Origin: Chitinophaga deserti
GTDB lineage: Bacteria > Bacteroidota > Bacteroidia > Chitinophagales > Chitinophagaceae
NCBI RefSeq assembly: GCF_003149455.1
Contig: NZ_QFFK01000005.1
Coordinates: forward strand, 248,001 to 312,000
Length of the DNA: 64,000 nt
Reading direction: 5' to 3'
The position numbers and the translations under genes were made by a program. Shown here piece after piece: positions 24,019 through 49,496 of the stretch. Under the pieces are notes generated by a model. That model ran no database searches, was not told the origin of the DNA, and saw nothing but the letters and a program-made list of their open reading frames with translations. Position 1 is the first letter of the stretch. The number at the start of each line of letters is the position of its first letter.

Positions 24019-24044
24019 AGCCCTAAACCTTTTGCCCCTGCCTG

Positions 24045-24219
24045 AGTGCTCTCTGAGTGCTTGAAAGTGCATGGAAAGTGCATGCTGAGTGCTCTCTAAG
24101 TGCTTGAAGAGTGCTTGTTAAGTGCTTAAAACCCTTTTAAAGAGCCGTACATCTTATCTGGACGTTAACTTGATCTTATCTTCACCTTAACTTGATATAG
24201 CTTAAAACTGCTTTAAAGG
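24045..24219. repeat. Degenerate 11-bp tandem array (AGTGC words, then TTAACTTGA words)
   Basis: Eight AGTGC words start at 24045, 24056, 24066, 24077, 24088, 24099, 24110 and 24121, so the step is 11 bases except one of 10. The same phase continues through 24132, 24143, 24154 (TTATCTGGACG), 24165 (TTAACTTGATC), 24176 (TTATCTTCACC), 24187 (TTAACTTGATA), 24198 and 24209. The array thus holds about 16 units whose sequence drifts from one word to another while the register holds. It fills the 216-base gap between two terminators and encodes no protein. The function is unknown. Confidence 0.85.
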
Positions 24220-24288: not shown

Positions 24289-24849
24289 TTACAATTTCGA
24301 AATAAGTTGCAACGTCTTCAGGTCAAACAAATGGATTTCATCCTTGTCAGTTTTATCGTGTTTGCCGTTGTTGTTGGTATCGTAGTACCCCGTAACCACA
24401 ATAGCGCCCGTTTCCCGGTGGATCGTCCAGAATGAAGAGAAGAACTTGTCGTCCGTGAGCTGCGTTTTCTTCTGTCCGTCAGTAGAAAGTACGATCAGCT
24501 GCACCGGATCGTTCCAGTCAATCCTTTTGTTGTTATCCAGATTTACAGTTTGGGCTGTAAGGAGGATGAGGTTGATGCCTAAAGTATCCAGCTTTACCTG
24601 TTCCCAATCCCGGAGGTAGGCGGTTTTCGGAAAATCGACCCGGTTGGCCTTTCCGGTTTTGGTATTGATGAAAAGCAGGTGCTCACCATGGGAAACGCCC
24701 ATTTTACCCACATTATCGAGGCTGGTAAGCACATATTCGGTACCTGTTAAGGGCACTAGTTTACTGAAACTGATGTAGTTATGCTTGTCTTGTGCTACGG
24801 CTCCCGCAGCGGTAAGCAGCAGGCAGAGTACAGGGATCATGTTTTTCAT
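24289..24849 (-). CDS. Secreted protein of unknown function
   Basis: The 186-residue product has a signal peptide (MKNMIPVLCLLLTAAGAVAQ). The mature part has repeated beta-strand pairs (ISFSKLVPLTGTEYVLTSLDN, HLLFINTKTGKANRVDFPK, LIVLSTDGQKKTQLTDDKFFSSFWTIHRETGAIVVTGYYDTNNNGKHDKTD), which resemble blades of a beta propeller such as TolB-like proteins. The DTNNNGKHDKTDKDE segment resembles a calcium-binding loop. It is monocistronic, between a terminator and a repeat-rich gap. I do not recognise the family. Confidence 0.72.
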   Translation of the reverse strand: MKNMIPVLCLLLTAAGAVAQDKHNYISFSKLVPLTGTEYVLTSLDNVGKMGVSHGEHLLFINTKTGKANRVDFPKTAYLRDWEQVKLDTLGINLILLTAQTVNLDNNKRIDWNDPVQLIVLSTDGQKKTQLTDDKFFSSFWTIHRETGAIVVTGYYDTNNNGKHDKTDKDEIHLFDLKTLQLISKL

Positions 24850-24943: not shown

Positions 24944-25078
24944 GTCAAACCTGCTGACACCCTCCTGCCATCCTTCAGTGATCCTTCAGTGGTGGTATAG
25001 GTTTGAGGGTGTTTGACTGAAGGATCACTGAAGGTTCACTGAAGGATTACTGAAGGATTACTGAACAATTAATGATGA
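24944..25078. repeat. Hairpin repeat unit 1 built from 11-bp CTGAAGGATCA words
   Basis: The left arm has two ATCCTTCAGTG words at 24970 and 24981. The right arm has CTGAAGGATCA-type words at 25017, 25028, 25039, 25050 and 25061, each step exactly 11 bases. Bases 24972-24990 and 25016-25034 form a perfect 19-bp inverted repeat with a 25-base loop. The left flank is GTCAAAC (24944) and a 20-mer starting CTGACACCCTCC (24954). The unit lies in the 572-base gap between the genes that end and start at 24849 and 25422; no gene is seen in this gap. Confidence 0.85.
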
Positions 25079-25245
25079 GTCAAACGGGTTGACGGTTTTA
25101 TCATACCTACTGACATCCTGCTGCCATCCTCCATCCATCCTCCATCCATGTCCAGCCACAGCAAGGGTTTGATGAAGGTTGGATGGAGGATGGATGAAGG
25201 TTTGATGAAGGATCGATGAAGAAAGGGGGAGGTTCGATGAACAAA
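25079..25245. repeat. Hairpin repeat unit 2 built from 11-bp GATGAAGGTTT words
   Basis: This unit repeats the plan of unit 1 with other words. GTCAAAC recurs at 25079 and the 20-mer recurs at 25110 with 18 of 20 bases identical. The left arm has CATCC words stepping by 11 (25114, 25125, 25136, 25147, the last degenerate) and the right arm has GATG words at 25171, 25182, 25193, 25204 and 25215. Bases 25132-25148 and 25180-25196 form a perfect 17-bp inverted repeat. The remaining 25246-25421 shows no structure I can support. Confidence 0.85.
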
Positions 25246-25421: not shown

Positions 25422-25613
25422 TCAGGTGGCGCCGTCTTTTTTGTCTTTGTTCTTTTTTTTGTCGCGGCCGGCATCGCGGAGGGCTTTGGCGATGATCCAT
25501 TCCAGCTGTCCGTTTACGCTGCGGAATTCATCGGCAGCCCAGCGCTCGAGGGCTTCATAAGTGGCGCCGTCGAGCCGCAGTACAAAAGACTTCTTTTGTT
25601 CTTTTTCGGCCAT
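25422..25613 (-). CDS. Ribbon-helix-helix (Arc-like) DNA-binding protein
   Basis: A 63-residue protein with a ribbon strand [39 protein letters not shown], the Arc/MetJ pattern: a beta strand that reads the major groove, then two helices with the NGQLEWII turn. A lysine-rich tail follows. It lies three bases after the SPFH gene and must be cotranscribed with it. Such pairs are common in Bacteroidetes. A 17-base palindrome on the operon's promoter (26508) is a possible binding site, which would make the pair self-regulated; this is inferred. Confidence 0.82.
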
Positions 25614-49309: not shown

Positions 49310-49408
49310 CTAATACCGTTTCAATGCTGTATGCATGCCACACTAATACCGCGCTAATACTACGACTATACTGTTACTATACTGTTTTAATGCGGTTACA
49401 ATACGGTT
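49310..49408. repeat. Degenerate 11-bp tandem array (CTAATACCGTT words)
   Basis: Nine units of exactly 11 bases run without a break: CTAATACCGTT (49310), TCAATGCTGTA, TGCATGCCACA, CTAATACCGCG (49343), CTAATACTACG, ACTATACTGTT (49365), ACTATACTGTT (49376), TTAATGCGGTT and ACAATACGGTT (49398). The array lies between the susD3 terminator and the end of mutS; the rest of this 311-base gap (49411-49496) shows nothing else. The small reading frame over it is not a gene. Confidence 0.85.
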
Positions 49409-49496
49409 AGAAGCACTTTTTCCCAACTTTAATATCAATTTCGCCTGTATTCATTAACTCTGATTGTGTGATAAATTAAATATTTGTGCGAAAATA

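Follow-up and report, generated by a model that had tools for sequence, protein, structure and literature searches.

Background

REPs are intergenic, dispersed and palindromic sequences of 20-40 bp, which carry a GTAG or CGTC tag, often lie close together and in opposite orientation, and are found mostly in convergent or co-directional gaps, downstream of coding regions, according to the part of the published description considered here (PMC3733652). Among the Bacteroidota, BrickBuilt, a MITE of Porphyromonas gingivalis, has inverted ends around an internal tandem array; the portion of its description considered here gives its repeats as 23-nt direct repeats and its terminal inverted repeats (TIRs) as resembling those of known ISs (PMC4596501). 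Template switching at quasipalindromes is a mutation process and no element family, and is presented, in the section of the source that bears on this point, as both maker and mender of hairpin stems (PMC8794818).

We analysed a 64-kb stretch of DNA, called here the window (G000:C19:248001-312000, where G000 is the source genome, a Chitinophaga judging from its named relatives), which contains two hairpin units, unit 1 and unit 2, at 24944-25245. Like REPs and BIMEs, the sequences of this class are intergenic, dispersed, palindromic and often close together, and 37 of 39 placed arrays lie in convergent or tandem gaps. They differ from REPs in that the units are about 130 bp long, the dimers are head to tail, the arms are made of swapping 11-bp words and the genome has no Y1 transposase match. 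Some copies resemble BrickBuilt in having inverted ends around an internal tandem array, but here the words are 11 bp long and of many kinds, the arms are inverted and TIRs are present in some copies only. Template switching provides a mechanism that matches both arms of a hairpin, whereas it leaves the fixed 11-bp period unexplained. No description of such repeats was found in the titles or abstract openings of the open-licence papers listed in searches for them.

The unit pair in the window

Units 1 and 2 form a head-to-tail dimer of hairpin copies (Table 1). The preliminary description of this DNA had claimed two adjacent units with long stems, and these are real: the 19-bp stem of unit 1 (24972-24990 with 25016-25034) and the 17-bp stem of unit 2 are the two longest perfect inverted repeats with loops of at most 100 in the window, and ten first-order Markov simulations of the window gave no perfect short-loop inverted repeat of 14 bp or more. 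Tandem Repeats Finder (TRF) reported periods 11, 22, 33 and 43 only. The 20-mer flank is shared as described, CTGACACCCTCCTGCCATCC in unit 1 and CTGACATCCTGCTGCCATCC in unit 2 being identical at 18 of 20 positions. Two details need correction. GTCAAAC, said to precede both units, precedes unit 1 but is replaced by ATCATAC at the corresponding place of unit 2 (25100-25106), whose nearest GTCAAAC is 21 bp further upstream (25079-25085). The words, said to differ completely, do not: the left-arm words ATCCTTCAGTG and ATCCTCCATCC have the anchor ATCCT-C in common, and 4 of their 11 letters are different, namely the last three and one inner letter.

Table 1. Features of the unit pair; positions are those of the window
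Feature	Position	Strand	Basis or remark
GTCAAAC preceding unit 1	24944..24950	+	sequence reading; GTTTTGCAAAAC at the same place in several other copies
Unit 1 frame CTGCTGACACCCTCCTGCCATCCT, itself stepped by 11 bp	24951..24974	+	pattern match G000:C19:272951-272974
Unit 1 left arm, words ATCCTTCAGTG, 19-bp perfect stem	24972..24990	+	
Unit 1 loop, 25 nt, motif common to other copies	24991..25015	+	
Unit 1 right arm, words ACTGAAGGATC, period 11, 4.5 copies	25016..25065	+	TRF
Inter-unit spacer	25066..25106	+	resembles the spacer of the A+B dimer L004/L024, by reading
Unit 2 frame CTACTGACATCCTGCTGCCATCCT	25107..25130	+	pattern match G000:C19:273107-273130
Unit 2 left arm, words ATCCTCCATCC	25124..25149	+	TRF; perfect stem 25132-25148 with 25180-25196
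Unit 2 loop, 31 nt	25149..25179	+	
Unit 2 right arm, words GATGGAGGATG / GATGAAGGTTT, period 11	25180..25221	+	TRF array start 25166
Unit 2 right end, decayed (GGTTCGATGAAC)	25222..25245	+	repeat D3

The pair is flanked on one side by a 186-aa gene without Pfam match (24289-24849, minus strand) and on the other side by the gene of a 63-aa protein (25422-25613, minus strand), which adjoins a Band 7 gene. The 63-aa protein has a weak ribbon-helix-helix (RHH) match, with 22.8 bits against a cut-off of 26, and sequence similar to its gene also occurs beside the Band 7 gene of relatives that have no units. At G059:C1:4591788-4592653 the Band 7 gene was matched as two pieces, with a stop inside the first part. 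No tRNA was found in the window.

The 11-bp arrays of the genome

The unit pair belongs to a larger class of 11-bp arrays. A lag scan of 1.6 Mb of G000 (33-bp window, at least 24 matches) gave 40 clusters at lag 11, one at lag 10, four at lag 12 and none at lags 13 and 14; at the multiples of 11 there were 27 (lag 22) and 16 clusters (lag 33). Arrays of lags 9, 12, 15, 18 and 27 were all inside genes, as were those of lags 21 and 36 except one each (lags 10, 20, 24 and 30 were not placed). About ten word families were distinguished by eye: CCTTCAGTGAT, CCTYCATCCAT, CCTTCTACCAA, ACCTTTGAGAT, AGTGCTTGTTA, TCCACCTCATC, GCTGTAATCGC, AGCCTATATTT, ACCTTATCTAT and GGGTTAAAGTA. The period hardly ever drifts to 10 or 12 bp, local slips being the exception, as in a B-family arm at L027 (G000:C20:398431-398546), where the 11-bp period gives way to a 7-bp one (GATGAAG repeated). 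The window has further arrays between converging genes, namely two at 24042-24196, with AGTGCTTGAAA and then TTAACTTGATC words, and one at 49338-49413, with ACTATACTGTT / TTACAATACGG words. Among other Chitinophaga, 111 kb from 29 genomes contained four arrays, two of which were the units of the relative G079. Sequence from other families of the order (13 genomes, 235 kb) contained no lag-11 array (the single match was a run of N), where about 6 would be expected at the density of G000.

Genes were called by our own codon-usage script. All 39 arrays with both neighbours placed were intergenic, with 23 in convergent, 14 in tandem and 2 in divergent gaps, while the sample has 50 convergent, 212 tandem and 121 divergent gaps of at least 150 bp. 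Arrays were hence present in 23/50 convergent gaps and in 16/333 others (Fisher p 2e-13, or 7e-11 with gaps of at least 50 bp), both p values being approximate because the arrays lengthen their own gaps. For the 36 genome-wide copies of families A, B and C we counted 15 convergent, 15 tandem and 5 divergent positions, one copy (L033) being unplaced; in the tandem ones the frame was antisense to both genes in 9 cases and sense in 6, and one of the divergent copies overlaps a called gene.

The preference for converging genes would suit bidirectional Rho-dependent terminators, in which C-rich words space cytosines regularly in the transcripts that arrive from each side. The rut site used by RhoTermPredict is 78 nt long, with C above G and a C every 11-13 nt, in the part of that report considered here (PMC6407284); a rho gene is present in the genome, and A and B words are, by reading, C-rich on the first-read arm from either side. 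However, C exceeded G in 14/23 array halves per side, no better than in the flanks (22/23 and 15/23), and the longest 11-nt register belonged to A alone in 11/39 arrays, to T alone in 8/39 and to C alone in 3/39. In addition, an intrinsic-terminator-like site lay between gene and array at 25/46 gene ends; for array-free convergent gaps, such a site lay anywhere in the gap at 97/160 gene ends. Since C forms no longer registers than A or T do and the C/G skew does not exceed that of the flanks, cytosine spacing of the Rho type was not supported, and we consider termination by Rho a distinctly unlikely role. The idea of arrays that replace one intrinsic terminator, from 15/23 gaps with exactly one such site before the array, was dropped as gaps with and without arrays had been counted differently.

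Placement after genes, where positive supercoils are expected, would also agree with BIME-2-like wrapping sites for gyrase at gene ends. The E. coli gyrase motif covers 130 bp, with a 36-bp centre, two 47-bp arms and a GC period of 10.75 bp, in the excerpt of the source considered here (PMC6379681), and the units are close to it in size and arm layout. Against permuted columns, however, GC phasing of whole arrays had a median p of 0.53, with 2/40 below 0.1, a measure in which folding both arms together can cancel phases; words of single arms had a median p of 0.70, with 2/12 below 0.1, and the words of units 1 and 2 had p values of 1.0 and 0.9, respectively. Phasing at about 10.75 bp in the arms was thus not above that of permuted words and was discarded; gyrase wrapping seems to us highly improbable.

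The frame and its words across Chitinophaga

The preliminary description had proposed to look for the flank elsewhere and to list the words behind it; the flank does recur, with different words. The frame CTRCTGACAYSCTNCTGCCATCCT was found in 7/79 Chitinophaga genomes (19 copies in G000, 13 in G079, 9 in G003, 6 in G012, 4 in G059, 2 in G098 and 1 in G076), the exact pattern being absent from the other 72. Judging from identical copies, G003 is probably C. barathri, G012 C. alhagiae, G098 C. sp. E66 and G079 LR632930.1. The latter is titled C. pinensis isolate 3, but it carries the arrays of G079, which is closely related to G000, and its species label may deserve a check.

We collected 64 frame copies, from which 15 of G003 and G012 were removed as duplicates (n = 49). 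Seven words follow the frame in this set: TTCAGTG (20 copies), TTCGGTG (15), TCCATCC (6), TTCATCC (4), TCCATCG (2), TCCGACG (1) and TTCGCTT (1). TTCGGTG is the word in 8/9 frame copies of C. barathri and in 6/6 of C. alhagiae. G059 adds words such as TTCGTTC, TTCAATG and TTCGCTC, and the three dimers that were read in this genome have a spacing of 130-131 bp and partner units with different words, like the pair in the window. In the source genome, unit 1 had 43 matches (E <= 0.001) and unit 2 had 55 (E <= 1), overlaps and both strands being counted. Phages, plasmids and viral contigs gave no match, the viral scan being done with the frame pattern only.

Coordination of the two arms

The covariation of the arms that the preliminary description had proposed is present in other copies. 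In the 49 copies, pairing between the two arms of the same copy averaged 19.3/22, against 15.3/22 with arms taken from other word groups, and 0/5000 permutations of the arms reached the observed pairing sum. We also fixed the register by the loop motif, using 25 distinct sequences and 500 shuffles. In this case 92.8% of cells were paired, against 80.9% in the shuffled sets, 72 cells were changed on both sides, against 28.1, and the covariation was 0.392, against 0.172 (0/500 for each of the three); the best slid register gave 0.167. The number of pairs with a change on both sides (9 against 8.2 shuffled, 184/500) and of further pair types (21 against 20.2, 208/500) showed no excess in the same 25 sequences. 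In G059, where 13 copies have other words, own arms paired at 16.9/22 in the best register, against 14.2 for arms of other groups, with a pairing sum of 220 against 201.6 for permuted arms (reached in 4/5000); in the fixed register pairing was loose, 11-16 of 19 in 10/11 scored copies, two copies having no loop motif.

Within species the picture is different. In the AGTG-type family of G000 and LR632930 (20 copies) the arm match was 399 against a permuted mean of 399.9, in C. barathri (8 copies) 151 against 152.0 and in C. alhagiae (6 copies) 104 against 106.1, with no gain in any of them: within species, neither AGTG- nor GGTG-type arms matched better than permuted ones. The B family alone exceeded permutation (237 against 229.1, 5/5000; 12 copies). 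Repair of one arm from the other is therefore not seen copy by copy: copying between arms, as suggested in the preliminary description, is plausible, with support at the level of word families and none among the AGTG-type copies of G000 and LR632930. Departures of single copies are mostly unmirrored, e.g. a right-arm GGTTC opposite a left-arm GATCC in several copies. We also swapped arms between G000 and G079, with a clear result at one locus of three: at 349k own arms paired at 20 + 18 of 22 and crossed arms at 15 + 14, while the values were 15 + 17 and 11 + 16 at 222k, and 20 + 16 and 18 + 17 in unit 2. From the within-species results, the unmirrored departures and the swapped arms, the coordination of words looks to arise with the origin of a word family, later upkeep letter by letter not being apparent. 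Coordinated change of the arms is demonstrated at the level of word families only.

Departures from pairing were counted in 31 distinct arm pairs, obtained from 67 copies by keeping those that had the loop motif and at least 13 of 19 pairs and by merging duplicates. There were 12 G-T and 16 A-C departures and 40 other mismatches. As G-T is not in excess over A-C, the matching of the arms looks to belong to DNA rather than to RNA, on small numbers. This bears on the reading of the units as RNA hairpins in 3' UTRs, kept through selection on RNA folding, for which the covarying arms would speak, as would a stem score of at least 12 in 20/40 arrays. The cut-off of 12 is the 95th percentile of 205 array-free gaps, and the count is rough, since array windows are mostly longer than background windows, the stem of C1:345.8k sits in the flank, and the imperfect hairpins of C12:241.5k and C19:222k score just 8. 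The other 20/40 arrays are below 12 and have no clear stem; for this reason copying between arms cannot explain the 11-bp period. Rfam gave no match at gathering level in the window, those over the units being to microRNA families with scores far under the cut-offs. The missing G-T excess speaks against pairing at the RNA level, and we give selection on RNA folding hardly any weight.

The same lack of a G-T excess is consistent with words that are binding sites on double-stranded DNA, each helical turn offering one site to a word-specific protein, which would spread along the helix. In the right arm the same site would then be flipped, and the arms would covary through changes in protein specificity and not through a strand that folds back. 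The dominance of the 11-bp period in arrays with and without stems agrees with this, and so does the species-wide usage of TTCGGTG. On the other hand, the many words of a single genome would demand many proteins, and the RHH-like gene, by reading, is also present at unit-free sites of relatives; we consider such sites possible, though rather less than probable.

Turnover between relatives and signs of mobility

We compared by eye the orthologous sites of G000 and G079 along a syntenic stretch that is mostly about 90-94% identical; C19:1-400k has 13 arrays, of which all but 3938 were used. The same word family was present in 7/12 (55.9k, 113.9k, 119k, 145k, 272.0k, 272.9k and 333.9k), often with a different number of words; at 333.9k one arm alone differs, by one 11-bp word. 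Other words were found in 2/12, i.e. at 222k, with ACCTTTGAGAT in G000 and ACCCATGTCTT in G079 in a similar frame, and at 349k, where the gap itself is much altered. G079 had no array at 2/12 sites (100k and 203k), and the region of 297k (window 49338-49413) is rearranged in G079, with no array in the pieces read. The first of the two arrays at window 24042-24196 is much shorter in G079. Both units of the pair are present in G079, while G006, G059 and G025 have a short gap without units at that site, although G059 has units at other sites. Separately, G000:C19:41000-53100 has many overlapping matches (64-79%) to neighbouring G079 stretches and probably consists of tandemly duplicated genes.

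Inverted ends were searched with the pattern GTTAATWTNNTATCNGA, with one mismatch allowed, which gave 23 sites in G000, while the reversed control gave 4. We examined 18 of these loci, the remaining 5 being the opposite ends of elements already covered; among the 18, L266 was centred wrongly, at the end of a contig. Precisely, 11/18 had an inverted partner of the GTTAATATNNTATC type with at most 5/17 mismatches, delimiting elements of 189, 190, 200, 200, 201, 209, 210, 210, 211, 211 and 223 bp that enclose A-, B- or related words. Their lengths step by about 11 bp, the mod-11 concentration being 0.88, against 0.81 for 10 and 0.74 for 12. A strict regular expression had given no TIR pair in the 1.6-Mb sample, whereas the looser genome-wide pattern did find pairs, and inspection by eye revealed no TIR at either end of unit 1 or of unit 2.

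No target site duplication was visible by eye at the 11 TIR elements, no clean junction was found, and no gene-bearing autonomous copy was seen, facing pairs among the 23 TIR sites being only about 0.2 kb apart. The Y1 (HUH) transposase PF01797 had no match in G000, the same search being positive in 5/14 control genomes, and mobilisation of the RAYT/IS200 type was rejected on this ground. The mobility supposed in the preliminary description is thus suggested by dispersed copies, unit-free orthologous sites and TIR-bearing copies, but has neither a transposase nor a target duplication nor a clean junction on its side. For want of these we do not file the units as REPs or MITEs; from placement and build they may be grouped with REP/BIME and MITE-like repeats.

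Discussion

The elements analysed here are about 130-220 bp long and combine a slowly changing frame (flank, loop and, in some copies, inverted ends) with arrays of 11-bp words. Their copies are dispersed, the 11-bp period is dominant, the placement is intergenic and mostly after genes, the number of words differs between copies, and word identity is coordinated between both arms across families and species. The explanation that we favour, at about an even chance of being right, is that they are non-coding elements similar to REPs, BIMEs and MITEs, in which slippage and arm-to-arm copying, both acting on DNA, renew the words, whose founders spread, and whose 11-bp period may be read on the helix by a putative protein.

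Under this explanation, slippage inside one arm would change the number of words, and a strand that folds back would allow template switching between the arms and so produce matched words. A founder with both arms rewritten could then spread as a unit and give rise to species-wide words. Slippage, template switching and the spread of founders do not explain 11 bp in all families; for this reason we suppose, more cautiously than for the other steps, that the period would be held at 11 because a putative protein may recognise one word per turn of the DNA helix.

A bolder version would make the 11-bp word the unit of a DNA-level read and write system tied to one helical turn, through a putative word-specific binding protein or a templated enzyme that extends hairpins. 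Such a system would be able to write any word, place it in both arms and propagate it; period and architecture would stay constant, and the word content would be free to drift from family to family and from species to species. We think this unlikely.

Extrapolating from the 1.6-Mb sample, this genome may have about 160 intergenic word arrays, in which a single period dominates and the content changes fast. Two questions thereby become testable in a soil genus that can be cultured: by what means bacterial palindromic repeats keep their arms matched during change, and whether a spacing of exactly one helical turn without a conserved word would define a class of chromosome-organising or transcription-ending sites.
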